Assembly (NCBI RefSeq): GCF_009192765.1
Contig: NZ_VOHQ01000001.1
Span: 186,001-250,000, forward strand
DNA: 64,000 bases
Reading direction: 5' to 3'
Source of the DNA: Agriterribacter humi
Lineage (GTDB): Bacteria > Bacteroidota > Bacteroidia > Chitinophagales > Chitinophagaceae
Part shown: positions 294 to 15,766 of the stretch, piece after piece
Layout of the letters: every line of letters starts with the position of its first letter
How positions within the stretch are numbered: position 1 is the stretch's first letter
Program-made: the position numbers and the translations under genes
Notes under the pieces: generated by a model
What the model saw: only the letters and a program-made list of their open reading frames with translations
What the model was told of the DNA's origin: nothing
The model's database searches: none

Positions 294-3200
294 TTAGAAC
301 GCAACATTTGCACCCAGTGTAAATGTTTTCATAGTCGGGTATGAATTCATGCTGCCTACACTGGGATCGTGATATTTGTATTTCGAGAGTGTAATTAAAT
401 TTGTTCCCGAAACGAAGAATGTCACGCCTGAAATCGTCATTTTTTGACAGATACTTCTGGGAAGTGCATATGTAAGATTTACATACTGTAAACGTAAAAA
501 GCTGCCATTCTTTAACCAGAAAGTTGATGGCAAATGGTCCACAGTGTAATCCCAGGTAACTGGTTGCGGGTATTTAGCATCAACATTATCTGGCGACCAT
601 GAATCAAGCCAGAAAGATGGTGGCCTTGCTCCATCAAAAAAACGTCTGCCATATCCATCATCATACAATTTCGATCCCCCCGTTACGCCCTGAAGAAATA
701 TATCTATGCCAATCCCTTTCCACCTTGCATTAAGGCTCAATCCAAATGTATATGGATTCAGGGAGTGTTTACCCTTTAGTACCTGCCTGTCATAATCGTC
801 AATTTTTCCATCAGGAATGCCGTCCTGCCCGTTTACATCTTCAAAATTAAGTGCGCCAAGAGCGGGTGTGTGCCCATAAATTGTATAACCGGCAGGAAGA
901 TCATCTATTTCTTTTTGAGTACGGATGATATCTGTAGCAACCAGCATCCGTATATAATCAGTAGGACGCCCATTGGGGTCATCAACTTTCTGTACATTTT
1001 GAGCAACATCTCTTAATTTAACCTTGTTTGCCGCATATGAAAAATTGCCTTTTACTCCAAACTCTACTTCACCCAAATTAGTATTATAACCTAATTCGAG
1101 TTCATATCCATGTGCGTCAACAATTCCATAATTTTCGGGCGGCATGCTTCCACCGAAAGAAACAGGCAAAGAAGCGATCCTCGAATCAAGAATGTCGTAA
1201 TTGTGCCTCTGGTAATATTCCGCAGAAAACAAAAAACCATTAAATAAACGAGCGTCTAAACCAAGATTCAACTCCCTGGTTTTTTCCCATGTTAAATTTG
1301 GATTCACTATTCCATTGTAAGTTACACGGGGTTGAGGAGCGGTACCGAATAAATAATCGCCATTAACTGCATAAGACTCACTCCATTTCCAGCCACCAAC
1401 AGCGTCATTTCCCGCAAGCCCCCAGGAACCACGTAGTTTCAGGAAATCAATACTTTTTACTTTGAAAAAATTTTCGTTCGACATTACCCAACCGGCCGAA
1501 ACAGAAGGAAATGTTCCCCAGCGATGACCAGGGCCAAAAAGCATTGAACCGTCCCGCCGGGCGGTAACATTTACAAAATACTTTTCACTATAACTATACA
1601 AAATCCTTCCTATGTAAGAGGCGCGCCCAAATTCACTTTCACTACCATTCACGTACGAGTCATTCCTGGAGGCTGATGTTGCCCAAAACTGGTCGTTCTG
1701 CACCAAAGGAAACCCTTCTCTTACCCCATAGAAATAATCGTACTTCCCTTCACTTTGCTCGTAAACCACAACCGCGTCAATATTATGTTCTCCAAATTTC
1801 CTGGCATAATTTGCAGAAAAATTCAATTGATAGTTATTGGTTGCCTCCTGGATTTTCGCCAATCTTTCTTTATTGGGATATGCTGATTTTATTGAGCCTG
1901 TAATCTCGTCTGTGTATATAGCCCCATTGGTACCTTTTCTTACTACATCATATAAAGTCGTTTTAAGTTCATGTAGCTTCATGGTGGTAGCTTCATAATT
2001 CGGGCTGTATTTTCCAGACACCGATAACCCCTCTATAACCGGAATTTTGTAAGTCAGTCCAAGCTGCATGGCAACATTACGCTCAACCCTGGTATTTGTA
2101 CCGCCTTCTTCAACAAATGCCAAAGGATTTCCAATCCAGCCCGGGTTGATGAATTTTCCATCGGATGTTTTGGGCGGCACATTTGGCAGATAATAAAGTA
2201 GCCGTCCCCACAGATTACCAAATTGGGGGTTAACGTCAAAACCAATAAGATCTTCCTGCATGGCAAACCTTTTTCTTGTTCCCTGGTTATAGGCAATATT
2301 AAAAACCCCGCTCAGATTCTTCGTGAAATTCACATCAATATTTGACCGAAAATTGTATTTATTAAAATCAGCATTTTTAATAAAGGCTGATTGATCGAAA
2401 AAAGAACCACCCAGAAAATACTTTATCTTATCAGAGCCGCCACTGGCTGTAAGTGAATGCTTTTGCAACACGGGATCCTTGTATGCTAAAGTATACCAGG
2501 CTTTGGCAGGATCGTGATCGTTAAAAAAGGCTACCTCTTCATCATCATACATGGGCGCTATGCCCCTGTTTGTGCGGGCGTAATTGTTTAGTCTCACCAT
2601 ATCTTTAGCACCTACATAATCAGGTATCTTAGAAGGTTTGTCAAAACTATATGAATAGTTATAATTAAACTGGAATTTTCCCGATGTGCCTTTTTTGGTG
2701 GTTACAAGAATAACGCCATTCGCCGCGCGGGCGCCATATATAGCTCCCGAAGCCGCATCTTTTAAGACGGTAACATTATCCACTTCTGAATAATCCATCG
2801 CATCAAATAGCCGTTTATCAGAAACTACACCATCAATAACATATAATGGATCATTACCAGTACTTTTCCAGGTATTTACAGAACGTACACGAATAGATGC
2901 AGCATATCCTGGTGCGCCAGAGCCCTGGTTCACATATACACCGCTTAACCGGCCGGCAAGTCCATTAGAAAGATTAGGTACCGGCATATTCTTAACATCT
3001 TCAGATTTCATAACAGCAATAGCACCAGTGACGGATGCTTTCTTCTGCGTGCCATACCCCACTACCACCACTTCATCTAACCCTGAAGCGGCTACTTTTA
3101 GTACAATATTGTTTAGCTGGTTTCTTCCGTTTACCGGTATTTCTATGGTTTCATATCCTACCATACTTACTTCCAATATGGCTTTTGCGTCTACGGCAAT

Positions 3201-3692
3201 AGAAAAAGAGCCGTCTGATTCAGTGGTAACACCAATATTCTGACCTTTTACTTTTACCGATGCTCCTTCCAGCGGGTTGCCGTTTTCATCTGTTATCTTA
3301 CCTCGCAGCTCAAGCTGGTTCAACAGGTCTGACTGGCTGGGAGAAATCACCACCAGGTAATCATTTACAATTTTATAAGCCAGTGCATTACCCAGCACTT
3401 TCTGCATGATCTCCGGTATGGTAGCATCCGTAACATGGATGTTTACTTTACCAATTTTTTTGATATCGTTCTGCAGATAGAAAAAGCGGTAAGCGCTCTT
3501 TTTCTGGATATTCGAAAAAACTTTTGTCGCTTCAACCTGTTCCAAATTCAGTGAAAACCTCTCCTGGCTATACCCTTTGGCAGCGGCCTGGATAAAAGGA
3601 ATTACCAGTAGCAAAACAGTTATTTTCATACACAGTAAATTCTTAAATACCGGACTGCATATATCATGCAGCCTGTACCTGCTTTTTTTCAT
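294..3692 (-). CDS. SusC/RagA-family TonB-dependent transporter with STN domain
   Basis: An 1132-residue outer-membrane transporter that would import a SusD-bound glycan with TonB energy. The start is set at MKKSRYRLHD (3692), which leads directly into a signal sequence; an in-frame Met 25 codons upstream gives an implausible N-terminus. In order: signal peptide to about residue 42, STN (secretin/TonB short N-terminal) domain about 45-117, carboxypeptidase-regulatory-like beta domain about 128-200, SusC motif LDEVVVVGYGTQKK about 205-218, plug about 220-335 with YVIDGVV, then a long beta-barrel. STN domains relay substrate status to a FecR anti-sigma factor, and the next genes upstream are exactly FecR and an ECF sigma factor. 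SusD follows downstream. Confidence 0.95.
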   Translation of the reverse strand: MKKSRYRLHDICSPVFKNLLCMKITVLLLVIPFIQAAAKGYSQERFSLNLEQVEATKVFSNIQKKSAYRFFYLQNDIKKIGKVNIHVTDATIPEIMQKVLGNALAYKIVNDYLVVISPSQSDLLNQLELRGKITDENGNPLEGASVKVKGQNIGVTTESDGSFSIAVDAKAILEVSMVGYETIEIPVNGRNQLNNIVLKVAASGLDEVVVVGYGTQKKASVTGAIAVMKSEDVKNMPVPNLSNGLAGRLSGVYVNQGSGAPGYAASIRVRSVNTWKSTGNDPLYVIDGVVSDKRLFDAMDYSEVDNVTVLKDAASGAIYGARAANGVILVTTKKGTSGKFQFNYNYSYSFDKPSKIPDYVGAKDMVRLNNYARTNRGIAPMYDDEEVAFFNDHDPAKAWYTLAYKDPVLQKHSLTASGGSDKIKYFLGGSFFDQSAFIKNADFNKYNFRSNIDVNFTKNLSGVFNIAYNQGTRKRFAMQEDLIGFDVNPQFGNLWGRLLYYLPNVPPKTSDGKFINPGWIGNPLAFVEEGGTNTRVERNVAMQLGLTYKIPVIEGLSVSGKYSPNYEATTMKLHELKTTLYDVVRKGTNGAIYTDEITGSIKSAYPNKERLAKIQEATNNYQLNFSANYARKFGEHNIDAVVVYEQSEGKYDYFYGVREGFPLVQNDQFWATSASRNDSYVNGSESEFGRASYIGRILYSYSEKYFVNVTARRDGSMLFGPGHRWGTFPSVSAGWVMSNENFFKVKSIDFLKLRGSWGLAGNDAVGGWKWSESYAVNGDYLFGTAPQPRVTYNGIVNPNLTWEKTRELNLGLDARLFNGFLFSAEYYQRHNYDILDSRIASLPVSFGGSMPPENYGIVDAHGYELELGYNTNLGEVEFGVKGNFSYAANKVKLRDVAQNVQKVDDPNGRPTDYIRMLVATDIIRTQKEIDDLPAGYTIYGHTPALGALNFEDVNGQDGIPDGKIDDYDRQVLKGKHSLNPYTFGLSLNARWKGIGIDIFLQGVTGGSKLYDDGYGRRFFDGARPPSFWLDSWSPDNVDAKYPQPVTWDYTVDHLPSTFWLKNGSFLRLQYVNLTYALPRSICQKMTISGVTFFVSGTNLITLSKYKYHDPSVGSMNSYPTMKTFTLGANVAF

Positions 3693-3878
3693 ATATTTGA
3701 ATTGAAAAGTTAATAAAGGGGAATGAGCTGGCCCTACAGTCTGGCTGATTCCACTGTTTAAGTACATTAGCTTTTTTGGGGAAGAGTTCCAACCTCTTCC
3801 CTTTTTAATGGATTGTTTATGGCGGATCGTAATAAATCATAAGCAAGTTTTTGGGTTTATAATATGTATGTATAAGCG

Positions 3879-4979
3879 TTACCTGATAAAAACATCGTTG
3901 CCATTTATATCGTACTCAAACCCTACCATGATCTGTAATACATGCATTGCCTCATCAAGGCTTACATTATCAAAGTCGCCGGTCATGAGTATGTCTTTCA
4001 TTTTCTCGTTTTTAAAATGAATATGCACATTATACCAGCGTTCCATTTTCAGCGCCACTATTTCAAGCGGCTCCTGGGTAAAAACCACTTTTTCCTTTAC
4101 CCATACCGCTTCTTCCGGCATGTTCGTTTCCTTTTTATCGGGCTTTACAGCCTGCACTTCATAGTTAAGCGGCGTAATGGTAATGGGGGTATGCGCATAC
4201 CCGTCCTCTTTTATTGTGCTGTTATTCCTGAGGGAAATTTTTTCATTGGGTAATAAAATCACTTTTTTTTCATCATCCTCTTTCAGGCTCACTTCCACTT
4301 TACCTTCTACTACTGTTGTTTCTATATCCTCCTTTGTGTTATAGGCTTTTACATTAAACACGGTGCCAAGCACCTTTACCATCATGCGTTTGGTATTAAC
4401 CAAAAACGGGTGGGAAGCATCTTTGGTCACTTCAAAAAAAGCTTCCCCCTTTAACCACACTTCACGGTTTTTGTTACCAAAGTCTTTATTGTATACCAGG
4501 CTGCTGCCACTGTTCAAATGAACCTCTGTACTGTCGGGCAGCATTATTTTTTTTCTTTCACCTTTCAAAGCCACTGTTACCGAATCCCTGCTTTGTGCAA
4601 CAACAACGGCAGAAAGTTTTTGTTTATCCGATGCGTAAAGCAGCCACACACTCAACAGCACAAGCCCGGCCACGCATGCCGCTACCATGGCCCTGAAAAA
4701 AAACATTTTTTTTGTTTTTGGCCGAAACAAGGGTACGGCTTCCCCGTTTTCAGGTTCCGTTTGAAAACGCTGCACGGTACGCTCCCACTTTTCGTCCAGC
4801 TCCTTTTCATTTACCTTAGCTTTTTTCTGCCAGATCTCCTGTACCATCTCCAACAGGTAGGGTTGAACTGATTCATCCTGCAGCAGTTGCCCCAATTCAG
4901 CCAGTTCATTGTCGGTTGCTTCATTACTTAGCTTTTTTCCCAGTAAAATAAAAATCCTGGCTTCCTTCATTTTGAGCAT
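3879..4979 (-). CDS. FecR-family anti-sigma factor with DUF4974
   Basis: A 366-residue inner-membrane anti-sigma factor. Residues 1-90 form a helical cytoplasmic region expected to bind the sigma factor. One membrane segment lies at about 92-116. A periplasmic FecR domain follows at about 130-245 (LPDSTEVHLNSGSS and GEAFFEV are typical), and a DUF4974 domain at about 300-366, which contacts the STN domain of the partner transporter. It sits between the ECF sigma gene and the STN-bearing SusC gene, so the three form a cell-surface signalling cascade. An alternative start at Met4 (4970) is possible. Confidence 0.93.
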   Translation of the reverse strand: MLKMKEARIFILLGKKLSNEATDNELAELGQLLQDESVQPYLLEMVQEIWQKKAKVNEKELDEKWERTVQRFQTEPENGEAVPLFRPKTKKMFFFRAMVAACVAGLVLLSVWLLYASDKQKLSAVVVAQSRDSVTVALKGERKKIMLPDSTEVHLNSGSSLVYNKDFGNKNREVWLKGEAFFEVTKDASHPFLVNTKRMMVKVLGTVFNVKAYNTKEDIETTVVEGKVEVSLKEDDEKKVILLPNEKISLRNNSTIKEDGYAHTPITITPLNYEVQAVKPDKKETNMPEEAVWVKEKVVFTQEPLEIVALKMERWYNVHIHFKNEKMKDILMTGDFDNVSLDEAMHVLQIMVGFEYDINGNDVFIR

Positions 4980-5037
4980 TGTATTCTAAAGGACACAATA
5001 AACCATTGCATCCCCTATAGATGAATAAAATTTATTT

Positions 5038-5640
5038 TCAGGATAATTTCGGACCCGATAAAAACGGAGAAGATTTATGATAAGGGTAGAAATCGACATG
5101 GTGGAGTGATGCGGCAATTTTTCTGACAGCCACAGCAATATGGTTTTCTACAGTGCGCGGGGAAATATTCAGTATCTCTGCAACCTCTTTGTAGGTGAGC
5201 TCATCCTCTTTAACGAGTTTGTATACAATCCGGCATTTGGGCGGCAGTTCATGAATGGCTTTGTTTACCAATTGCAACAGCTCCGTTGCAACCAACAAAT
5301 CTTCGGGGTTAGGTACCAGCTCACTGCAAATTACATCTAATTGATTCAGACCCATGACATGGGTATCCGTCTGCCTGTTGATATAATTGAGGCATTGGTT
5401 TTTGATTGAAACGTACAGGTAAACCCGCAAATTGGAAATATTGGTGATAGTGGAACGTTTATTCCAGATTTTTACGAAAAGATCTTCTACGATTTCTTCA
5501 GCTACTTCTTTAATTTTCACAATGGATGCAGCAAACTGAAAAAGCCCGGTGTAATAATGCCTGAATAACTGTTTAAAAGCATGCTGATCACTAAAAAGAG
5601 CAACCTGTTCCTGCAGCGCAAATATCTCTTTTCCGGTCAT
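5038..5640 (-). CDS. ECF RNA polymerase sigma-70 factor
   Basis: A 200-residue extracytoplasmic-function sigma factor of the Bacteroidetes SusC-linked type. Region 2 spans about residues 20-88. Region 4 spans about 120-180, with a helix-turn-helix around LTYKEVAEILNISPRTVENHI. The start is placed at MTGKEIFALQ (5640) because the 23 codons upstream are Asn/Lys-rich and low-complexity. It precedes the FecR gene by 58 bases and probably activates the SusC/SusD operon when FecR releases it. GH127 lies 263 bases upstream on the same strand; that gap is AT-rich and I see no defined site in it. Confidence 0.93.
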   Translation of the reverse strand: MTGKEIFALQEQVALFSDQHAFKQLFRHYYTGLFQFAASIVKIKEVAEEIVEDLFVKIWNKRSTITNISNLRVYLYVSIKNQCLNYINRQTDTHVMGLNQLDVICSELVPNPEDLLVATELLQLVNKAIHELPPKCRIVYKLVKEDELTYKEVAEILNISPRTVENHIAVAVRKIAASLHHVDFYPYHKSSPFLSGPKLS

Positions 5641-5903
5641 TACAGATAGTTTAGGACTTATTGGCACAATGAAGTTATTGTTATTTTTATTAAAAAAACA
5701 ATAACACATTTTTTTGCAATGTATGCATTGGATGTCTTCGCTTATGGCAATCGTTTGCGCTATTTTTTGTAACCCGGTTAAAACCCGGCAAAGGATTTAT
5801 TTTCTTCATTAAAGACCATGTGAGAAATACAATGCTTTATCCATCCGGCAACACCAGTATTTATAGCCGGTAAAATTACATTTACTGAAATGATATTATC
5901 CTG

Positions 5904-7931
5904 TCACCTTGCAATCACCGGAAACTGGGCAATTCTTAAACGGGTAGCGCCATAAGGTATTAAAATAATTTCTTCTTCTTCTTTTGCCGTCTCCAACTGG
6001 TAAGTGACGCTGTATGGAATAGGCCCCGTCATTTCATTGTACAATTGCCAGGATGGGATAAGCCTGGCTTTGGTCTTTATGGAAACGGGCACACTACCCG
6101 CATTCCAGGGAAAGTTTGAAATTGCTTTCTCTTTCTCAAACGTATAATGTTCATCCAGCTTATTATCTGCTATATCATTTAGTCCGTAATTCCATGGCGT
6201 GGTGGGCCGCACTTCAAAATAACTGTTTCCATAGGCTACCGGATCTTTGTCATTTTTAACCTCCCTCACTTCTTCGCCAATTTTTAGCGCATACACGATT
6301 GGTCCGCGTTCAATGGAAACCGAATTTTCATGCCAGGTGTTTTTAAAGATATGCATCGGCAGCGCTAATTCAACCCTGTCACCCGATTTCCATTCACGGT
6401 TAATTTTAATAACCTGGTTTCCCACGGCTTCCTGCCAAATTTTATCATTGATCTTTATGACAGCTTTTTTGCACCATGCGGGTATACGCAGGTGAAAAGG
6501 AAAAGTAACCGGTTTATTTTTGTTATCCACCTGTAAAGTAAATTTTACAGACTCCCCGAACGGATAATCGGTTTCTTCATTGAACGATATGGCTGTTCCA
6601 CCTGCAACAATGGCCTTTACTGAACTTGGTGAATAAATCAGTGCTGCAAGTCCTTTATCGGGTGTGGCATACCACAGGTTTTGAGTAAATTTTGGCCACC
6701 CCTGATGCATGTTCGATGTGCAACAGGGATAACCTGTAAGCAATCCATAACACAGATCTGTTCCGCCATGATTAACATCAAAATTTCGCGTATGCCTTGT
6801 TATCATTACCTGGTTTGCCTGCTGAAAATACTGCCTCCGCATAAAATCGTCAGAAATCTGAGCGGGTAAAGCATTAAAAGCTATCTTCTCAATATGATCC
6901 GCATAACTTGCTTTGCCTGTAATGGCAAGTATATTTTCAAGACTGAACATCATTTCAACAGCAGAACATAATTCTGAGCCCTGTGTTGGATTATTTCCAT
7001 GCAAAGCTTCGTCGCCGCCATAAAGTCCGTGTGCCATCCCGTTGTATTTCCGGATATCTTCAAAACCTTTCTCCGTTGCATCTAAGTATTTTTGTTCAGG
7101 ATGATGCTGGTAATAAATGATGGGCTCTTTTATTCCCTGGGCAAGGTTTACACAATGAATGCTTCCCGGATTGGAAAGCATATCGGTATGTAAAAATGCA
7201 TTTGTATAATCAAAGGTCTGCCTGTGAAGCAGATCGCCCAATTCAAGCAGAAACTGATCGCCTGTTATATTATAAAGCCAGTAAACAATCATTAAATTAT
7301 CACCTCCCCGGTAACGTGCCCAAAAAGTCCAGTGATCAAGCGGTTTTTGGGGAAGTTCTTTCAATTGATATTTAAAATAGTTCGTCATGAGTGTAATCAC
7401 TCTTTGATCATGGGTTGCACTATAATACTGCTTCAAGATTTTAAGCATTACCATTTTTGGCCACCAGTCACGGCTATTGTCTCTTTGAAGGCCCGGCTCA
7501 GCGGTATAGTCTTTAGCAGGCCCAAAATATCCATCTGGCTGCTGACTGTTTATAGCCCACTCAATCCAGGGCTTTGTTTTTGCGATCAGCGCCTTATCAC
7601 CCAAAATATAGGCAAGCGGCAAAAGTCCGTCTATCCAGTATGGGCCGCGCTCCCATTGATCTCCGTCACCACCCAGCCAGCCATTCCTGTGGTTCATTAC
7701 CAGCGGATAAAGGGTATCCAGGTTTCCTGTTGCGCCATTTTTTTGCCTGGTCAGCATCTCTTTTAACCATCCCTGCGGTTTAATGGCTCCCAATGGAAGT
7801 TCCGTATATGGGTTTGGCCGGAGTGGCGCACGGCTATGGGTATAATCTCCGGAACCATTTTTTTTGTTTACCTGCCCAACTGCATGAAGCATGAAACTTA
7901 TAAAAAGGAATGACAGGAAGATTTTTTTCAT
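5904..7931 (-). CDS. GH127-family glycoside hydrolase (putative beta-L-arabinofuranosidase)
   Basis: A 675-residue exported enzyme of the DUF1680/GH127 family. A signal peptide covers roughly residues 1-20 (cleavage near HAVGQ). The body is an (alpha/alpha)6 barrel followed by beta domains. The metal-site signature of the characterised bifidobacterial beta-L-arabinofuranosidase, Glu-x-Cys plus a Cys-Cys pair, is present as E320-L-C322 and C403-C404 in YPCCTSNMHQ. In the known enzyme one Cys of the pair is the nucleophile on a zinc ion. The gene is transcribed toward the sigma/FecR/SusCD genes and diverges from the secreted-enzyme cluster at 8130, so it probably acts in periplasmic or surface glycan breakdown. 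Specificity beyond the family is inferred. Confidence 0.85.
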   Translation of the reverse strand: MKKIFLSFLFISFMLHAVGQVNKKNGSGDYTHSRAPLRPNPYTELPLGAIKPQGWLKEMLTRQKNGATGNLDTLYPLVMNHRNGWLGGDGDQWERGPYWIDGLLPLAYILGDKALIAKTKPWIEWAINSQQPDGYFGPAKDYTAEPGLQRDNSRDWWPKMVMLKILKQYYSATHDQRVITLMTNYFKYQLKELPQKPLDHWTFWARYRGGDNLMIVYWLYNITGDQFLLELGDLLHRQTFDYTNAFLHTDMLSNPGSIHCVNLAQGIKEPIIYYQHHPEQKYLDATEKGFEDIRKYNGMAHGLYGGDEALHGNNPTQGSELCSAVEMMFSLENILAITGKASYADHIEKIAFNALPAQISDDFMRRQYFQQANQVMITRHTRNFDVNHGGTDLCYGLLTGYPCCTSNMHQGWPKFTQNLWYATPDKGLAALIYSPSSVKAIVAGGTAISFNEETDYPFGESVKFTLQVDNKNKPVTFPFHLRIPAWCKKAVIKINDKIWQEAVGNQVIKINREWKSGDRVELALPMHIFKNTWHENSVSIERGPIVYALKIGEEVREVKNDKDPVAYGNSYFEVRPTTPWNYGLNDIADNKLDEHYTFEKEKAISNFPWNAGSVPVSIKTKARLIPSWQLYNEMTGPIPYSVTYQLETAKEEEEIILIPYGATRLRIAQFPVIAR

Positions 7932-8129
7932 ATGCTGTTTTAAAGGGCTTTAAAATATTTAATTTGAGTTAGCATCTTAAACAATAAAAAATTAAGGTAC
8001 CGATTTTATATCTACCTCCCCAATTGATGCGGGGCGATAAGAAATATTTGACCTAAATATATGGACTCATTATTGCATTTGTCTTAATTTCAAATAAAAC
8101 ATTCAGGTTAAACCACAAAACTATCGGCA
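7932..8129. promoter_or_regulatory. Divergent promoter region between GH127 and the secreted-enzyme cluster
   Basis: A 198-base AT-rich gap between two divergent transcription units. It should hold promoters for both directions. I find no convincing TAnnTTTG box or long palindrome, so the sites themselves are not called. Confidence 0.4.
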
Positions 8130-9293
8130 ATGTACAGGCGGCAATTTATAAAACACAATTCGCTGGCGGCACTGGGGCTGGCCTTCAGCCCTTTGCAGTT
8201 TGCCGGCGAAACAGGAGGCGGGGGCAATCTCCATTTTATTAGCCCCATTGACGGAGACATGCTGCATAAACATGATGGTATAGTAATGGGCGAAACATTA
8301 CAGGCCCTGGTAAAAATTGCGGCGCCTGCCAACAGTTCTATTACCGTGAATGGTATACAGGCAAAAAAGAGTAATGGAATTTTTACGGCTGAAATAGCTT
8401 TGGCTAATTTTCAAAATGCAATTGAACTGAGTGATAAAAAAACCGGAATACAAAAAAACATCACGGTATACTGGCTTAAAAACCTGGCAGATAATTACAG
8501 GCTTTCTATTGATGATGCGGTATGGTTTTTAAAAGACATCAACGCCAATACATCCACGTATAGTTCAATCTTCAACAACCCCTTTCTCGGATTTTTAAAA
8601 GAGGTACATGATGCGTATGACACTAAAGTGCATATCAATATCTTTTACGAAACCGATGGCTTCAACCTTTCTCAAATGACCGATCAGTTTAAAAATGAAT
8701 GGCGGGCTAATGCCAGTTGGTTGCAGCTTAGCTTTCATGCAAAAGCGGAGTTTCCTGACAATCCTTATATACACGCCGGTTATGACCAGGTAAAAACAGA
8801 ATGCGATGCGGTAATCCAACAGATCAGGCGTTTTGCAGGAGATGAATTAACGGGACCAGTTACCACCCTGCATTGGGGCGAAGTGCCGGTTGAAGTATCC
8901 AGGGCGCTGAGAGACGCGGGGTATACGGGACAACTATGCGACTTTAATGTAGACGATAATTTGTCTCCTTGTTCCTATTACTTAAATGTGGAGCAAAGAA
9001 GACATATTAATAAACGATTTTTATGGAGAGATAATAAAGAAGCGATTGGTTTTATAAAAAGCAGTATCATTATAGATACAAAAAAAACAGAGCACATCAT
9101 TCCTTATTTAGATCAATATGAACAACAAGGCCGTAAACCACCTTATGCAGATTTACTGATACATGAACAATACTTTTATCCGGGTTACCATAACTATCAA
9201 CCCAATTACCGGCAAAAAGTATTAACCGCGGTAAAATGGGCGGTGGAAAAAGGATATACGCCTGCATTTTTAAAAGACTGCATATATGAATAG
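8130..9293 (+). CDS. Tat-exported polysaccharide deacetylase-like protein
   Basis: A 387-residue exported protein of uncertain function. The N-terminus MYRRQFIKHNSLAALGLAF matches a twin-arginine signal (RRxFIK), implying export in folded form. Residues 33-115 look like a beta-sandwich domain. From about residue 122 the sequence resembles a NodB/polysaccharide deacetylase barrel: D128-D129 in LSIDDAVWF, H203 in QLSFHAKAEF and H248 in TLHWGEVP are candidate metal or catalytic residues. The assignment rests on these motifs only. It overlaps the next gene by 8 bases, so the two are probably translated together. Confidence 0.6.
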   Translation: MYRRQFIKHNSLAALGLAFSPLQFAGETGGGGNLHFISPIDGDMLHKHDGIVMGETLQALVKIAAPANSSITVNGIQAKKSNGIFTAEIALANFQNAIELSDKKTGIQKNITVYWLKNLADNYRLSIDDAVWFLKDINANTSTYSSIFNNPFLGFLKEVHDAYDTKVHINIFYETDGFNLSQMTDQFKNEWRANASWLQLSFHAKAEFPDNPYIHAGYDQVKTECDAVIQQIRRFAGDELTGPVTTLHWGEVPVEVSRALRDAGYTGQLCDFNVDDNLSPCSYYLNVEQRRHINKRFLWRDNKEAIGFIKSSIIIDTKKTEHIIPYLDQYEQQGRKPPYADLLIHEQYFYPGYHNYQPNYRQKVLTAVKWAVEKGYTPAFLKDCIYE

Positions 9294-12200
9294 TATCCCA
9301 TTCACCTTAAACCATATTATCAAACGCATGATCGCCGCCTCCGCGGTTAGTGTCTTCGCTAACCCCATAATCACAAAATCTAAATGGAATGCTTATACAC
9401 CGGTAATATTAATTATCCTACTGGGAACAAGTAGCCTTTTCACTTCCTGCAAACAAAAACCGCCAGCAGCGACAGACGGGTTAAGGGTTCCGGAAGGATA
9501 TACGATAGAGCGGGTAGCGGGGCCAGATCTGCTCTCCTACCCCATGTTTGCCAGTTTTGATAACCAGGGCCGGCTTTTTGTAATTGAATCGAGCGGAAAA
9601 ACAACGTCTACTGAAGATGTATTAGAGAACCCAACTTTTCAAATCCGGCTTTTGGAAGATATGGATGGCAATGGAATTTATGATAAGAGCGTCGTATACG
9701 CAGATCATATTCCCTACCCAATGGGTGGCTATTTTTACCGGGGGAGCTTATATGTAGCCGCGCCGCCTAACCTCATGCGCTTTACGGATGCGGATGGAGA
9801 TGGCATAGCCGAAAAGCGGGAAGCAGTATTGAGCGGATGGGTGCTGCATCATAATGCGGCCACGCTGAGTGGACCTTTTATGGGGCCCGATGGCTGGTTG
9901 TATTTAGCCGACGCCCGGCGCGGATTTAGCATTAAAACAAAAGAAGGCGACTCCCTAACGGGAAAGGGTGCACGAATTTGGCGTTGCCGGCCCGATGGAA
10001 CGGGATTGGAATCTGTTTCGGGCGGAGGCTTCGACAACTCCGTAGAGATTGCTTTTATGCCTTCGGGCGAAACAATAGGAACAATGACCTATTTCACCGA
10101 TCCTAAAGACGGGTTTCGTGATGCCGTGATGCACTGGGTGGAAGGCGGCGTGTATCCCAAGCCCAACAGCGTTATTGAAGAAGACCACCTGAAGTTAACG
10201 GGTGAACTGATGCCTGTGATGACAAAGCTGGCGCGGATATCTCATGCGGGTATAATGCGCTATCGCGGATCGGCGTTTGGCGCCGCATTCAAAGGCAATC
10301 TATTTACCGCCCAGTTTAATACGGGGCGAATTATGCGGCATATTATTACCCCGGAAGGCGCTACGTTTAAAACTGCAGACGAACCTTTTATGCAATCCGA
10401 TAGTTTGGATATGCATCCAACGGATATACTGGAAGATGCGGATGGCAGTTTGCTGATGGTGAATACCGGCGGCTGGTTTATTGCGGGCTGCCCACTTTCT
10501 GTGGTGGCTAAAACCAACGTATTGGGTGGCATTTACCGCATTCGCAAAACGGGTGCGCCGGTTGTAAACGATCCCTGGGGAAGGAAATTGAATTTTAAAG
10601 AGATGCCCGTACCTGATCTTGTTAAATATATGATGGATGATCGGCCTTTTGTTCGCGACAATGCTATAGAACAAATTGTTATAACCGGTGAACCGGCTGT
10701 TGATGCACTTAAAAATGCAATACCCACTATTAAAGATGAAGAACTGCGTGCGGCAGCAGTGTTTGCCCTTTCGCGCATAAACACCGCATCCGCAAAAGAG
10801 GGTGTGCGTAAAGCATTGGATGATCAAAGCGTTATTGTACGTACCGCGGCAGCGCGCATGGCGGGTATAGCAAAAGACAAAGAGGCACTGAGTAAGTTAA
10901 TGCAAATGGTGCGGCAAGATGAAGCCCCCGCCCGGCGGCAGGCCGCAACAGCGCTTGGCCAAATTGGCGATGAAAAGGCGGTAGCGGCACTTCTAAGCGC
11001 TTCCAAAAACCCTGATGACCGTTTTGTAGAACATGCAATAATTTATTCGCTCATCACCCTGAAAAAAGTGGCACCACTGACACTTGCATTAAACGATAGC
11101 TCTGTTAATATGCGTAAGGCGGCATTGGTGGCGCTCGATCAGATGGACGGTTCACCCCTGCAAAAAAATCAGTTAACAGCTTTTCTGTCCGATGGAAACA
11201 AAACAATCCGTAATACAGGTATATGGGTGGCGCTGCATCATCCCAACTGGAGCGACATTGTAACCAACTTCCTGCAAAAACAATTAAATACAGCGGCATT
11301 GCCGGTGGAAGAACGATCATCATTACGTGAGCTCATGGTAGCGTTCAGCAACGACGACAAGACCTTGCAAAATTTCATTGGAGCCCAGTTATCAAGTTCA
11401 GCAACACCGGTTGAAAAGAAAATGTTTTTGATGGATGTAATTGGCCGCAGTGCGGTTCAAAACATTCCTTCTGCATGGATAAATCCATTGGGTAATCTAT
11501 TAAAAGGCGATAATGCAACACTCCGTTCCGCGGTATTAGATTTAATTGAATCGCATGGCATTAATACATTGAACAAAGAACTCAATCAAATTATACAGGA
11601 CACAAAGCCTCCCACTGCTTTCAGGCTTAAAGCTTTCAGTGCACGATTAAAGTCGGAGAAATTACTTTCCGATTCGGAATTTCAATTGCTGTTTCATTTC
11701 TTAGATAAAGATCAGGAATCGCCCGTCAGGCAATCTGCAGTGCGTTTGCTTGCCCAGTCTAATGTAAGCGACACGCAATTGCTATCCCTGGCAAAAGAAC
11801 AAGTGGCGCAGGCGGATGTTTTTTTACTGCCTTCGCTTATTACTGCGTTTGAAAAAAGCAAAAGTGAAGAAGTAGGCAAGGCACTGATAGCAGCACTGCA
11901 ATCTTCCACCAACGGGTTGGGCAGCCTGTCTGTAAAGGACATGCAAAAATTGTTTGACGCATACCCGTCATCCGTGCAGGCATTGGCCGAACCCCTTATG
12001 AAAACACTGCAAGATCAGCAGGCGTCACGTTTATCGCAGTTGGAACAATTAGAGGCCTCGCTCAAAAGAGGCGATGTGGGAGAAGGGCGCAATCTTTTCT
12101 TTAGCAAAGCCACCTGTTTCACCTGCCACTCTGTAGAAAAGAATGGGGGGCAGTTTGGGCCTGACCTGACAAATATCGGTGAAATCAGATCGCGGCACGA

Positions 12201-12507
12201 TTTGCTGGAAGCCATTGTATACCCCAATGCCAGCTTTGCACGGGAGCATGAAACATCAAAAATAATAACCAAAACCAATACGTACACAGGCATCATCACC
12301 GAACAATTGCCGGATGCCATCATAGTAGCAACCGGCCCCGGTTCCATCATGCGGGTACCGCGCAGCGAAATCAGTTCCATTGAACTGCAAAATGTTTCTA
12401 TGATGCCACCCGGATTAGACAAGATATTAGACAAACAGGAACTGGCTAACCTGATGGCCTACCTGGTTTCTTTACCTGACGGACTGGGACAAATAAAAAG
12501 TCACTAA
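9286..12507 (+). CDS. Lipoprotein with beta-propeller, HEAT repeats and c-type cytochrome (PVC-type heme protein)
   Basis: A 1073-residue exported protein. The first 40 residues are an unusually long leader, then a hydrophobic segment ends in LFTSC, a likely lipobox. Residues about 65-420 resemble the propeller of PVC-type heme-binding dehydrogenase-like proteins. Residues about 440-900 carry degenerate HEAT/PBS-lyase-type helical repeats. A cytochrome c domain at about 930-1070 has the heme motif C944-F-T-C947-H948. Such proteins are abundant in Planctomycetes and some Bacteroidetes and are thought to oxidise sugars or related substrates and pass electrons on; no substrate is established here. 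The gene overlaps the Tat-exported protein by 8 bases, and a DUF1080 gene follows 12 bases later. Confidence 0.85.
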   Translation: MNSIPFTLNHIIKRMIAASAVSVFANPIITKSKWNAYTPVILIILLGTSSLFTSCKQKPPAATDGLRVPEGYTIERVAGPDLLSYPMFASFDNQGRLFVIESSGKTTSTEDVLENPTFQIRLLEDMDGNGIYDKSVVYADHIPYPMGGYFYRGSLYVAAPPNLMRFTDADGDGIAEKREAVLSGWVLHHNAATLSGPFMGPDGWLYLADARRGFSIKTKEGDSLTGKGARIWRCRPDGTGLESVSGGGFDNSVEIAFMPSGETIGTMTYFTDPKDGFRDAVMHWVEGGVYPKPNSVIEEDHLKLTGELMPVMTKLARISHAGIMRYRGSAFGAAFKGNLFTAQFNTGRIMRHIITPEGATFKTADEPFMQSDSLDMHPTDILEDADGSLLMVNTGGWFIAGCPLSVVAKTNVLGGIYRIRKTGAPVVNDPWGRKLNFKEMPVPDLVKYMMDDRPFVRDNAIEQIVITGEPAVDALKNAIPTIKDEELRAAAVFALSRINTASAKEGVRKALDDQSVIVRTAAARMAGIAKDKEALSKLMQMVRQDEAPARRQAATALGQIGDEKAVAALLSASKNPDDRFVEHAIIYSLITLKKVAPLTLALNDSSVNMRKAALVALDQMDGSPLQKNQLTAFLSDGNKTIRNTGIWVALHHPNWSDIVTNFLQKQLNTAALPVEERSSLRELMVAFSNDDKTLQNFIGAQLSSSATPVEKKMFLMDVIGRSAVQNIPSAWINPLGNLLKGDNATLRSAVLDLIESHGINTLNKELNQIIQDTKPPTAFRLKAFSARLKSEKLLSDSEFQLLFHFLDKDQESPVRQSAVRLLAQSNVSDTQLLSLAKEQVAQADVFLLPSLITAFEKSKSEEVGKALIAALQSSTNGLGSLSVKDMQKLFDAYPSSVQALAEPLMKTLQDQQASRLSQLEQLEASLKRGDVGEGRNLFFSKATCFTCHSVEKNGGQFGPDLTNIGEIRSRHDLLEAIVYPNASFAREHETSKIITKTNTYTGIITEQLPDAIIVATGPGSIMRVPRSEISSIELQNVSMMPPGLDKILDKQELANLMAYLVSLPDGLGQIKSH

Positions 12508-12519
12508 ACTTTGAAGACA

Positions 12520-13353
12520 ATGGAAAAAAGAATCCTTATTTTTCTGGCATTCATTTGCGCATTAACATTTATCGCGACAGGAAATTTTGCGCAAACCAAT
12601 GCATCCTTATTAAGTGCCAGAGACACAAAAACCAACAAAACGATTGAGCTCTTCAATGGCAAAAATCTAAAAGGCTGGTACACTTTTATTAAAGGGCGGG
12701 GAAGAGGCAGCGATCCCCAAAAAGTATTTACGGTTAACGATAAGATGATTAGGGTTTCGGGTGAGGAATGGGGTTGCATTACTACCAACAAAGAATATGA
12801 AAACTTCACGCTAACTGTTGAATTTAAATGGGGAACAAAAACATGGGAACCACGTGTAAAGAATGCAAGAGACAATGGTATACTGGTACATTCTACCGGA
12901 ATGGATGGCGGTTATGATGGTACCTGGATGCACGGAATTGAATGCCAGATTATAGAAGGCGGCACGGGCGACTTACTGGTGGTTGGCGATAAAACTGAAA
13001 AGTTTGCTATTACCTGCCCGGTAGCAACTGAAAAACAGGGAGGCAGTTATCTTTTTCAGCCGGATGGCAAGCCTGTTACTATTCATGGCGGGCGCATTAA
13101 CTGGTATGGCCGCGATGCAGACTGGGAGGATGTAATTGATTTTAGGGGGAAAAGCGATGTTGAAAAACCAGTGGGGGAATGGAACAGGATGGAAGTTGTT
13201 GCCAAAGGAAATGATATCTCTATATTTTTAAATGGCGTGCTGGTAAATCAGGCCATGCAGGTTAAACCCGCAAAAGGACGGATACAAATTCAATCCGAAG
13301 GCGCGGAAATGCTGATAAGACGGATCGAACTCACGCCAATAAGTACAGAATAG
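12520..13353 (+). CDS. DUF1080 / 3-keto-disaccharide hydrolase-domain protein
   Basis: A 277-residue exported protein. The ATG at 12520 is preferred; an in-frame TTG at 12511 is also possible. The signal peptide ends near GNFAQ. The mature part starts with ELFNGKNLKGW, the hallmark of the DUF1080 (3-keto-disaccharide hydrolase) jelly-roll fold. Family members have been linked to cleavage of 3-keto-glycosides produced by sugar 3-dehydrogenases. The gene follows the cytochrome/propeller lipoprotein by 12 bases, which fits an oxidise-then-cleave scheme, although no flavin-dependent glucoside 3-dehydrogenase is seen in the window. Confidence 0.85.
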   Translation: MEKRILIFLAFICALTFIATGNFAQTNASLLSARDTKTNKTIELFNGKNLKGWYTFIKGRGRGSDPQKVFTVNDKMIRVSGEEWGCITTNKEYENFTLTVEFKWGTKTWEPRVKNARDNGILVHSTGMDGGYDGTWMHGIECQIIEGGTGDLLVVGDKTEKFAITCPVATEKQGGSYLFQPDGKPVTIHGGRINWYGRDADWEDVIDFRGKSDVEKPVGEWNRMEVVAKGNDISIFLNGVLVNQAMQVKPAKGRIQIQSEGAEMLIRRIELTPISTE

Positions 13354-13439
13354 CGGGGATAGCCTGCTAAAAAAAGTATCCCGCTAATACTGCGGTTACC
13401 GGACACGGTGAGTATAGAATCTGCCATTATCTTACTTCA

Positions 13440-14849
13440 ATGAACAGGAAAGTGAAACTTAAAATCTGTAATAAAAAACAAATGTCGCATAAGCCGCCAC
13501 TGAAACCGATTGTGCTTGGATTCTTTATTTTTTTTATTGGTGCAGGTACAGCTTTTGCCCAGCAAATACGCATTGGGGTTTTTAATGCGAATGTTACGCC
13601 ACCAATCGGTAGCCCGGTGGCGTATGCTACAGCCCGATCCATTATGGATTCGCTCAGCGCCAGGGGAATCGTTATTCTTTCGGATGAAAAGCCCATTGTA
13701 TTATGCGCTGTAGACTGGATAGGTATTGGAAATGAAGGGCTGGAAGTATGGCGCCGGCGTTTGGCGGAAGCGGCTAATACCAGCATTGAGCGGGTGTCGG
13801 TACATGCACTGCATCAGCACGATGGTATTCATTGCGATTTTACCATGGCAAGGATTATGGATGAATATGGTATGGGCGGCATCCGCTTTGATACCGCATT
13901 TTTACACGCGGCTATTCAGCATGTATCCGATGCCATTAGTAAGGCTGTAAAAAATACACAGCCCGTTACGCATCTTGGTTTTGGACAAGCAAAGGTTGAT
14001 AAGGTAGCTTCCAACCGCCGCATATTAGACGAAAACGGTAAGGTGAAAATTATTCGCTGGAGCGCCACTACCGATTCCGCCGCTATAGCCGCTCCGGAAG
14101 GGCTGATTGACCCCTGGCTGAAATGCGTGAGTTTTTGGAATAATGAAAATCCGTTAGCCATAATGACATATTATACTACACATCCTCAAAGTTATTATGG
14201 AGACGGTGATGTAACCTGCGAATTTATTGGCATAGCCCGTAATGCAAGAGAGAAAGAAACGGGGGGCATTCCACATATTCATTTTAACGGCGCCAGCGGC
14301 AATATTGCAGCCGGCAAATACAACGATGGCTCTAAAGCCATGCGACCAGTGCTGGCAAACCGGGTAGAAACTGCTATGCATGAAGCCTGGGAGCAAACTA
14401 AAAAAACAGCAATAAGCGGAAAAGATATGAGCTGGAAAAATACGGAGGTAAAACTCCCCCTTGGAAAAAACATATTGGAGGCGGAATTGAGAGCCACCTT
14501 ATCGGATGAAAAAAAATCAGCAGCGGAAAAAGTGGCGGCGGCAGAAAAATTAGCCTGGTACCAACGGTCTGTAGCAGGCCAAAAAGTAAATATATCCGCT
14601 CTGCGGTTAGGCAAGGTATGGTTGCTGAATTTACCGGGCGAACTGTTTGTAGAATACCAGTTAGCGGCCCAAAAAATAAAACCGGGTGCACAGGTATGCA
14701 CAGCCGCCTATGAAGATTACGGTCCGGGTTATATTGGTACTAAAATATCCTATACCCAGGGCGGTTACGAAACCAGTGGTATTGTTTCAGGTACGGCGCC
14801 CGAAGTTGAAAAGGTATTAATGAAAGCTATTAAAAAAGTGTTGAAATAA
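13440..14849 (+). CDS. Neutral/alkaline ceramidase-like exported protein
   Basis: A 469-residue exported protein with a signal segment around FFIFFIGAGTAFAQ. Met15 (13482) is an equally plausible start. The opening IRIGVFNANVTPPIGSP and the motif VHALHQHDG are typical of the N-terminal domain of neutral/alkaline non-lysosomal ceramidase-like proteins. HFNGASGNIAAG occupies the place where true ceramidases carry their nucleophilic Ser motif, but the sequence is not the classical one, so ceramide amidase activity is doubtful. Relatives occur in planctomycete and Bacteroidetes clusters with DUF1080 and PVC-type cytochromes, as here. It is the last gene of the 8130-14849 unit. Confidence 0.7.
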   Translation: MNRKVKLKICNKKQMSHKPPLKPIVLGFFIFFIGAGTAFAQQIRIGVFNANVTPPIGSPVAYATARSIMDSLSARGIVILSDEKPIVLCAVDWIGIGNEGLEVWRRRLAEAANTSIERVSVHALHQHDGIHCDFTMARIMDEYGMGGIRFDTAFLHAAIQHVSDAISKAVKNTQPVTHLGFGQAKVDKVASNRRILDENGKVKIIRWSATTDSAAIAAPEGLIDPWLKCVSFWNNENPLAIMTYYTTHPQSYYGDGDVTCEFIGIARNAREKETGGIPHIHFNGASGNIAAGKYNDGSKAMRPVLANRVETAMHEAWEQTKKTAISGKDMSWKNTEVKLPLGKNILEAELRATLSDEKKSAAEKVAAAEKLAWYQRSVAGQKVNISALRLGKVWLLNLPGELFVEYQLAAQKIKPGAQVCTAAYEDYGPGYIGTKISYTQGGYETSGIVSGTAPEVEKVLMKAIKKVLK

Positions 14850-14932
14850 ACGATAAACTCAAATTGAAACGGATGTTCCCCTGTAACTTGTAACCTGCAA
14901 CCTGAATCAATCTTAAAATTCACCTACCTCTC
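14850..14932. repeat. Short intergenic stutter repeat
   Basis: Between two convergent genes lies CGATAAACTC, then a stretch of the form GTAACTTGTAACCTGCAACCTG (14882-14904). On the other strand this reads as the GCAGGTTGCAAG word family of 43537-43583, and the first part matches the AGTTTATCG word seen at 17814 and 43487. Confidence 0.6.
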
Positions 14933-15766
14933 TCAATAATCCCCCAATGTTTCCGGCAATTGGGCCAACGCTTTTTGTAATTGTTCATCGTTTGGAGCTA
15001 TTCCATGCCACTCGTGGTGACCTTCCATAAAATCTACCCCTTTTCCCATAATAGTATGCATCATTATGGCAATGGGCTTACCCTTTCCGGTAAGTGATTT
15101 TGCTTTGTTTACAGTGCCGATCAGGTCATCAATATCATTACCGTTGGTTTGAAGAATTGTCCAGCCAAAGGCTTCAAACTTTTTGCCTATATCGCCTAAA
15201 TCCATCACCTTTTGCGTGGGACCATCAATTTGCTGACCGTTCCAATCAATAGTGGAAATCAGATTATCTACCTTATTGTGGGCCGCAAACATAATAGCTT
15301 CCCAGTTTTGTCCTTCGTCTAATTCACCATCTCCGTGCAGGGAAAAAACAAGTTTATCGTCATTATTCAATTTTTTAGCGAGTGCCGCACCTATAGCCAC
15401 GCTCATTCCCTGCCCCAGCGATCCTGAAGCCACTCTTATACCAGGCAAATGCTCATGGGTGGCCGGATGCCCCTGAAGCCTTGAATTTATTTTTCTAAAA
15501 CTGGCCAACTCAGTGATCGGAAAATAGCCCGACCTGGCAAGCGTAGCATAAAACACCGGTGAAATATGCCCGTTTGAAAGAAAAAACAGGTCTTCACCCT
15601 TACCATCCATATTAAATGAAGGGTCGTGTTTCATAATATCAAAATAAAGTGCGGTAAAAAAGTCAGCACATCCCAATGATCCTCCCGGGTGTCCGCTTTG
15701 GCAGGCATGTACCATTCTTACTATGTCTCTCCGGATCTGTGTGGCTATGTCTTTTAATTCTGGCAT
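14933..15766 (-). CDS. Transketolase, N-terminal subunit
   Basis: A 277-residue protein covering only the thiamine-diphosphate-binding half of transketolase. H26 in GHPGGSLG and the GDGELDEGQNWEA motif at 145-157, followed by N176, form the TPP/metal site. Full transketolases are about 650 residues; many bacteria encode the two halves as adjacent genes. No C-terminal subunit lies beside it: both neighbours are on the plus strand and unrelated. It should work in the non-oxidative pentose phosphate pathway once paired with a C-terminal subunit encoded elsewhere. A pentose link to the arabinosidase-containing island is possible but unproven. Confidence 0.92.
   Translation of the reverse strand: MPELKDIATQIRRDIVRMVHACQSGHPGGSLGCADFFTALYFDIMKHDPSFNMDGKGEDLFFLSNGHISPVFYATLARSGYFPITELASFRKINSRLQGHPATHEHLPGIRVASGSLGQGMSVAIGAALAKKLNNDDKLVFSLHGDGELDEGQNWEAIMFAAHNKVDNLISTIDWNGQQIDGPTQKVMDLGDIGKKFEAFGWTILQTNGNDIDDLIGTVNKAKSLTGKGKPIAIMMHTIMGKGVDFMEGHHEWHGIAPNDEQLQKALAQLPETLGDY

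Follow-up and report, generated by a model that had tools for sequence, protein, structure and literature searches.

A propeller–cytochrome c lipoprotein paired with a DUF1080 protein in Agriterribacter humi: a candidate exported gene set for oxidative, 3-keto-glycoside-type glycan cleavage

The 64,000-nucleotide stretch of Agriterribacter humi DNA analysed here (contig NZ_VOHQ01000001.1, positions 186,001 to 250,000; hereafter the window) belongs to a genome of 5.69 Mb in 34 contigs and carries four consecutive plus-strand genes whose products we call DeAc, Prop, DUF1080 and CerL (Table 1). Our comparisons showed that a DUF1080 gene follows Prop, a lipoprotein made of a propeller, HEAT repeats and a cytochrome c domain, in many relatives, and we read the four genes, with a probability of roughly 0.6, as an exported set for oxidative (3-keto-glycoside) glycan cleavage with Prop and DUF1080 as its core. 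An earlier note on this DNA had listed the genes and their coordinates; the open reading frames (ORFs), GH127, the Prop domains and DUF1080 were borne out by Pfam and NCBIfam.

Table 1. Features of the Prop–DUF1080 unit and its neighbours, in window coordinates
Feature	Position	Strand	Basis or remark
DeAc, 387 aa	8130-9293	+	ORF; twin-arginine motif; weakly Ig-like N-terminal, conserved C-terminal part
Prop, lipoprotein: propeller + HEAT + cytochrome c	9286-12507	+	Pfam, NCBIfam, AlphaFold2
Prop propeller domain, residues 62-432	9469-10581	+	Foldseek, fold of soluble PQQ glucose dehydrogenase/AA12
Prop HEAT-repeat domain, residues 433-925	10582-12060	+	Pfam, model
Prop cytochrome c domain, residues 929-1065	12070-12480	+	CxxCH at 944-948
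DUF1080 (3-keto-disaccharide hydrolase family)	12520-13353	+	Pfam
CerL, distant neutral/alkaline ceramidase relative, putative zinc amidase	13440-14849	+	hhalign
Intergenic stretch GH127/DeAc, divergent, presumed promoter region	7932-8129	n/a	ORF positions
GH127-like glycosidase, divergent neighbour	5904-7931	-	Pfam; putative Glu/Cys site
ECF sigma factor of adjacent polysaccharide utilisation locus	5038-5709	-	Pfam
FecR anti-sigma factor	3879-4979	-	Pfam
SusC	294-3767	-	Pfam

The four genes are closely spaced. With the ATG at 12520, DUF1080 begins 12 bases after Prop, as had been reported (a TTG at 12511 is an alternative start), and the reported 8-base overlap of DeAc with Prop stands only with the first ATG of Prop, the next in-frame ATG (Met15) abolishing it; between the called ORFs of two relatives treated below, L065 and L085, DeAc and Prop are 50 and 92 bases apart (L numbers denote loci compared, G000 the source genome, G028 a genome of the same genus, and C a contig). 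Export signals are seen on all four proteins: the twin-arginine motif RRQFIK in DeAc, in line with the Tat export predicted for it, a lipoprotein signal on Prop and Sec signals on DUF1080 and CerL, all judged by eye.

Prop scores 142.1 bits with DUF7133, 94.3 with HEAT_2 and 38.1 with Cytochrom_C, and, like PVC-type heme-binding CxxCH proteins, it passes the NCBIfam cut-offs for TIGR02604 (151.0 against 122.2 bits) and TIGR02603 (97.7 against 68.15 bits). The source genome has 23 TIGR02604/DUF7133 matches above cut-off, in about 21 proteins. An AlphaFold2 model of Prop was obtained with pLDDT 86.8 and pTM 0.84. In an alignment of 53 members of the Prop subfamily, the heme ligands C944, C947, H948 and M1040 are present in all rows, and M1040 aligns with M292 of the diheme cytochrome Kustd1711, the residue substituted in the mutant structures 7zs1 and 7zs2, which makes Met1040 the probable second axial ligand. 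Mean pairwise identity is highest in the propeller (59.5%), followed by the cytochrome domain (52.1%) and the HEAT repeats (35.5%, the lowest).

Scanning the genome collection with the Prop alignment, we found 116 relatives and took the best 80 as loci, 76 of which have a downstream ORF; relatives from a separate search partly overlap the genomes of this set and were excluded from the counts. At the +1 position, on the same strand as Prop, we found a DUF1080 gene in 27/76 loci and a gene for a PF01261 TIM barrel in 14/76 (41/76 together), compared with 3/442 and 1/442 among ORFs at least five genes away in the same loci (the DUF1080 protein of the window itself matches PF06439 with 109.8 bits, cut-off 26.8). 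The linkage of Prop and DUF1080 exceeds chance. The two enzyme types never occur together in one Prop run, and the median gap after Prop is 33 bases for DUF1080 and 30.5 bases for the TIM barrel. When Prop proteins of at least 53% identity are considered, DUF1080 is next in 22 of 34, and one Prop–DUF1080 pair belongs to Acidobacteriota. The source genome contains four DUF1080–DUF7133 pairs within 3.5 kb against 0.57 expected (double matches merged and one DUF1080 match below cut-off discarded; one of the four uses a DUF7133 match below cut-off), and its Prop paralogue on C6 (L059; 47% identity) is followed by a PF01261 protein. Prop is found at E <= 1e-30 in 17 of 294 genomes of the family, its own genome counted. 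Among the literature matches listed, from a search covering few subscription papers, none describes the pairing.

Mapped onto the Prop tree, DUF1080 takes 10 gains or losses where shuffled labels take 23.2, and the TIM barrel takes three where they take 13.1. The partner at +1 can also be read in the propeller, where position 250 is D in 28/28 DUF1080 rows and N in 14/14 TIM rows, and position 283 is H in 27/28 DUF1080 rows and Y in 14/14 TIM rows. Because the TIM rows form one clade, we count this switch as about one event and not as independent evidence.

We take the annotation carried by LgdB1 and LgdB2 of the levoglucosan route, that of sugar phosphate isomerases, to be of the PF01261 kind. 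These two enzymes carry out elimination and hydration of 3-keto sugars, while oxidation or reduction in the same route falls to Gfo/Idh proteins (PMC7676230); related lyases are covered in PMC13273386. For DUF1080 proteins, hydrolysis of 3-ketotrehalose is described, and that of 3'-ketolactose is probable (PMC9007349). The TIM barrel may be a 3-keto-sugar enzyme. What chiefly argues for a part of Prop in 3-keto-glycoside chemistry is that the position directly after it is taken by either of two families, unrelated to each other, that both include enzymes of this type.

As to what the propeller might do, Foldseek placed the predicted domain close to 5min_A, an apo pyrroloquinoline quinone (PQQ) glucose dehydrogenase (E 2.5e-8, TMt 0.54), and to 6jt5, the AA12 pyranose dehydrogenase (E 5.9e-7, TMt 0.57). 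In AA12 the catalytic residues are His144 and His363, and PQQ is contacted by Arg430 and Asn431 (PMC6881789). We aligned the Prop subfamily with three GSDH proteins and 15 DUF7133 paralogues of the source genome: the PQQ Arg column holds R in 3/3 GSDH proteins, 4/15 paralogues and 0/53 Prop rows (D in 42, N in 11), the Asn position is retained in 52/53 Prop rows, and no conserved His stands at the catalytic His position (H189 in 15/53), in a column that is gappy and an alignment of low identity. We rejected a canonical PQQ enzyme: the fold fits, but the Arg and catalytic His are not retained. A comparison of the propeller profile with PDB sequences returned no PQQ dehydrogenases, only designed propellers and chance matches. 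No PqqE above cut-off was found in the source genome, but none of 14 control genomes passes either, and PQQ uptake is possible. At the same time, 43 of the 371 propeller positions are invariant, including polar residues such as E101, S102, T266, T268, R278, D279, K292, R317 and N345 (each 53/53). Being the best conserved of the three domains and having lost the PQQ Arg and catalytic His, the propeller probably carries an active or binding site other than the canonical PQQ one.

Gfo/Idh proteins with no export signal occur in 16 of the 80 Prop runs and 3HCDH proteins in 15, and orthologues of both lie away from the window in the source genome (Gfo/Idh, 78% identity, C30; 3HCDH, 72%, C11). Larkinella and Dyadobacter are examples of relatives with the arrangement Prop–DUF1080–Gfo/Idh–3HCDH. 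Exported-type Gfo/Idh proteins occur in 12/80 runs, 11 of them with a twin-arginine-like motif. One of the exported proteins, L085:7188-8537, has the glycoside 3-dehydrogenase model BT_2158_fam as its best match (130.7 bits, E 5.6e-38), far under the equivalog cut-off of 750. Every ORF of the 80 loci was also searched for GMC and LacC-like genes. In the Larkinella loci L078, L082 and L083, LacC-like and GMC genes follow Prop at a distance of 7 to 10 genes, and in L101 a LacC-like gene lies six upstream. Elsewhere in the source genome, at L160 (G000:C23:470001-482500), Gluconate_2-dh3 (LacC-like) and GMC genes stand directly 5' of a DUF7133/HEAT/cytochrome gene, which suggests that proteins of this architecture may act as the cytochrome of a GMC dehydrogenase. 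In the 41 loci where DUF1080 or the TIM barrel is at +1, an exported-type Gfo/Idh was seen within six genes of Prop in seven and a GMC protein in none, with six ORFs visible on both sides in 21/41 and contig ends hiding neighbours in 20/41.

The source genome is rich in candidate oxidative glycan genes, with about 21 DUF1080 and about 21 DUF7133 proteins and four LacC-like genes. For a Pedobacter strain, ten DUF1080 proteins are given (PMC9007349).

The earlier note had named linkage in relatives as a test of its proposal. The order DeAc–Prop–DUF1080–CerL recurs in one other genome, the Chitinophagaceae metagenome-assembled genome (MAG) of L065, where it is followed by SusC, a SusD of a different type and a GH20 protein; DeAc–Prop–DUF1080 recurs in another, the Sphingobacteriales MAG of L085, preceded by two Gfo/Idh genes with twin-arginine-like motifs. 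The window, L065 and L085 form one clade (SH-aLRT 99). Linkage held for Prop with DUF1080 and for DeAc with CerL (L022, L065), and did not hold for GH127 or throughout the genus: in G028, a SusCD pair and GH16 precede the adjacent DeAc and CerL (L022), and Prop–DUF1080 (L049) is on another contig. The window unit therefore looks like a Prop–DUF1080 pair placed between DeAc and CerL. Among the 80 Prop runs, five contain CerL and two contain DeAc, so that the role of both proteins rests on few genomes.

Several other genes were seen beside Prop (Pfam annotation of the unlabelled neighbours covers the 25 families listed of 91, for 64 of 100 neighbours). A PhyH dioxygenase gene stands directly 5' of Prop in nine loci from Cyclobacterium, Lunatimonas and a Cytophagales MAG (L117, L121, L125, L128, L130, L132-L134, L140). 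A dimethylformamidase-like DMFA2_C protein is in the Prop run in 9/80 (L067, L074, L089, L090, L093, L106, L112, L119, L141), with a twin-arginine-like motif in four of the nine. Upstream of the L085 unit, on the opposite strand (L085:1063-4275, minus), lies the gene of a planctomycete-type cytochrome (PSCyt1-PSCyt2-LamG-PSD1) that includes a carbohydrate-binding-like domain.

DeAc had been described as deacetylase-like, and a deacetylation step had been built on it; neither found backing here. DeAc has no Pfam family above cut-off, and even at E <= 10, where filtering removes most weak matches, none was listed; compared with six PF01522-matching proteins it gave 2% in hhalign, and its model (pLDDT 68.4) had no deacetylase among the 50 fold matches listed and no convincing fold match, so that a polysaccharide deacetylase was dropped as a candidate. 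The protein is rare (4/294 family genomes and 5/396 order genomes, its own counted), and a scan of viral contigs gave no matches. Six relatives were aligned (50-73% identity): three share the twin-arginine motif (L065, L085, L022) and three have no export signal. Relatives of DeAc stand beside GH109_C-type Gfo/Idh and 3HCDH genes in L023-L025, L198 and L199, with GH20 too in three of these, a company that by inference points to N-acetylhexosamine glycans as the target.

The same five loci, in which the DeAc relatives are without an export signal, also hold genes for an EamA-type transporter (by eye), enolase-superfamily and SDR proteins, and their GH109_C-type protein has a twin-arginine motif by eye; this cluster appears to form an amino-sugar or sugar-acid pathway of its own. 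A second DeAc copy, L197 (G028:C30), shows one in-frame TAA on extending the profile match, perhaps outside its true ends.

For CerL, the name ceramidase-like holds by profile comparison and has no direct Pfam match behind it: against six PF04734-matching proteins of the same genome, three of which exceed the Pfam cut-off, hhalign gave 99.9% with E 1.1e-33 over 413 columns, which supports CerL as a distant member of PF04734, the family of neutral/alkaline ceramidases. H127, H248, E401 and Y431 of CerL align with what we take to be the zinc ligands of the Pseudomonas ceramidase (two His, Glu, Tyr). Close CerL proteins (58-73%) lie near Prop in L065, L074 and L119.

The divergent neighbour GH127 is placed in its family by Pfam (catalytic domain 107.3 bits, middle domain 66.4), and an alignment with 5mqo, 4qjy and 3wre shows its ExC and CC motifs retained, presumably the active-site Glu and Cys. 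GH127 is near Prop in 0/80 loci, many of which end early at contig ends, and we dropped it as a core part of the unit; the earlier proposal had listed it among the genes of the system. The neighbouring ECF and SusCD genes were confirmed: the extracytoplasmic function (ECF) sigma factor, FecR and SusC were identified by Pfam, and SusD, adjacent to SusC, lies at the left edge of the window and runs on beyond it, followed there by GH29-like and LamG/weak GH36N proteins. As a part of the system this pair fares less well, SusC being in the Prop run in 10/80 loci. Both GH127 and the SusCD type of the window look like local company of the unit. A Bacteroidota promoter pattern matched four times across the window against 4.39 expected, with no match in the intergenic stretch between GH127 and DeAc, and a sigma-70-like scan of 4900-15000 gave 20 matches against 22.4 expected, two of which touch that stretch.

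Our reading of the unit starts from the computed pairing, domain identities, heme ligands and propeller fold, and extends from them by inference to the C3 chemistry, the electron flow, the substrate and what DeAc and CerL do. Outside the cytoplasm, a glycan would have one of its sugars oxidised, most likely at C3, and Prop's cytochrome c would take up the electrons and pass them on to respiration; DUF1080 would cleave the resulting 3-keto-glycoside via elimination or hydrolysis; and CerL, perhaps with DeAc, may strip acyl groups, possibly off N-acetylhexosamines. In some relatives the genes of a cytoplasmic protein of the Gfo/Idh/MocA type and of a 3HCDH-like dehydrogenase come next in the same run; the source genome has orthologues of them elsewhere. 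The route likely resembles the known 3-keto-glycoside one, with a heme-linked propeller protein standing where a dehydrogenase would be expected. Of the earlier proposal that a sugar is deacetylated, oxidised and cleaved outside the cytoplasm, the redox 3-keto route is thus kept as the best reading, given the 41/76 loci, and the deacetylation found no support.

Several observations weigh against this reading. All 80 loci were retrieved via two conserved peptide patterns and hence represent one subfamily, and the binomial p for the +1 enrichment, 7e-63, is nominal and ignores kinship. Neither enzyme is at +1 in 35/76 loci, where another same-strand ORF (22) or an opposite-strand ORF (13) follows Prop. 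The solved structures closest to the TIM profile come from various isomerases and epimerases, a 3-keto-D-glucoside 4-epimerase (E 2.8e-9) being one of them, and the DUF1080 family includes an endo-xanthanase/lichenase (PMC9007349). CerL is absent from the L085 unit, and three of the five CerL runs hold a distant CerL (L071, L081, L101).

The question of what makes the 3-keto sugar divides the oxidative readings. Prop could be an electron acceptor or scaffold for a separate exported LacA-type GMC or Gfo/Idh dehydrogenase, as LacB, which we take to be a cytochrome and the counterpart of Prop in such a scheme, would be. The loss of the PQQ-site residues, the exported-type Gfo/Idh proteins in 12 runs, the BT_2158_fam-like protein of L085, the gene order at L160, the LacC-like and GMC genes near Prop in the Larkinella loci, the LacC-like gene in L101 and the four LacC-like genes of the genome all fit an acceptor, which we consider a real possibility, if short of an even chance. 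Against it, such a Gfo/Idh is close by in only seven of the 41 DUF1080/TIM loci and GMC in none, and the propeller is conserved above the cytochrome domain, which a mere scaffold would not need. The earlier note had suggested that the propeller/cytochrome protein may itself be the oxidase; here the propeller with a bound cofactor would oxidise the glycoside and its own heme would take the electrons, much as in a quinohemoprotein. The fold shared with 5min_A and 6jt5, the many invariant polar propeller residues and the 34/41 DUF1080/TIM loci with neither exported-type Gfo/Idh nor GMC within six genes (six ORFs on both sides being visible in 21 of these 41) speak for this suggestion, while the lost catalytic His and PQQ Arg of the soluble PQQ glucose dehydrogenase (sGDH) and AA12, the missing PqqE (missing in the controls, too) and the exported glycoside 3-dehydrogenase relative in the L085 run speak against it, and we hold it to be slightly less likely than the acceptor. 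The acceptor is placed first since neighbours are hidden by contig ends in 20 of the 41 loci and LacC–GMC genes are 7-10 genes off in three. Less likely again is the more specific proposal that Prop by itself constitutes a new kind of glycoside 3-dehydrogenase, with a quinoprotein-like propeller that would use another cofactor or pass electrons directly via the fused cytochrome c, and whose product would go to DUF1080 or, in the sister clade (D250N, H283Y), to a TIM-barrel lyase.

It could also be that the locus is hydrolytic only, DUF1080 being an ordinary glycosidase and Prop serving respiration or sensing apart from glycan cleavage. The endo-xanthanase/lichenase already mentioned, the Glu/Cys positions of GH127, the GH29-like protein nearby and the description of planctomycete-type cytochrome functions as unknown in PMC5615132 are compatible with such a locus. 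It gives, however, no evident reason for the recurrent tight pairing with DUF1080 or TIM barrel, nor for the company of Gfo/Idh and 3HCDH, and we judge it the least probable of the alternatives.

Compared with described systems, the exported 3-keto-glycoside set proposed here has a DUF1080 enzyme, and Gfo/Idh partners in relatives, in common with BT2157/BT_2158/BT_2159 of Bacteroides thetaiotaomicron and LacABC of Caulobacter, and oxidation outside the cytoplasm in common with LacABC (PMC9007349). Unlike in LacABC or BT_2158-type systems, the DUF1080 partner is a propeller–HEAT–cytochrome c lipoprotein, and the window unit has no dehydrogenase gene. The levoglucosan set LgdA-B1-B2-C offers a parallel in its sequence of oxidation, elimination, hydration and reduction, with an isomerase-like eliminase and hydratase and a Gfo/Idh reductase (PMC7676230), but is NAD-linked and consists of four enzymes with neither a cytochrome nor a DUF1080 protein in the set. 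AA12 and sGDH share the propeller fold, and AA12 is fused to a heme domain (PMC6881789); Prop differs in lacking the catalytic His and PQQ Arg and in having heme c and HEAT repeats instead of a cytochrome b. Planctomycete PSCyt1-3 are other cytochrome types than Prop, with a carbohydrate role suggested from carbohydrate-binding modules and neighbours only (PMC5615132). Kustd1711 of Kuenenia (7zs0) aligns with Prop in the C-terminal cytochrome domain, including the Met position, but has 316 residues, two cytochrome stretches and no propeller or HEAT match found. CerL is like the PF04734 ceramidases by profile and unlike them in that the Pfam model does not match it directly.

TIGR02604/DUF7133 proteins are numerous, and no function is stated for them among the literature matches listed. 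The pairing of Prop with 3-keto-glycoside enzyme families offers a concrete test of what these proteins do. If Prop were a self-contained dehydrogenase, PVC-type heme proteins would gain an enzymatic role, and if the exported oxidative set proposed here is correct, glycan breakdown would be tied directly to the respiratory chain.

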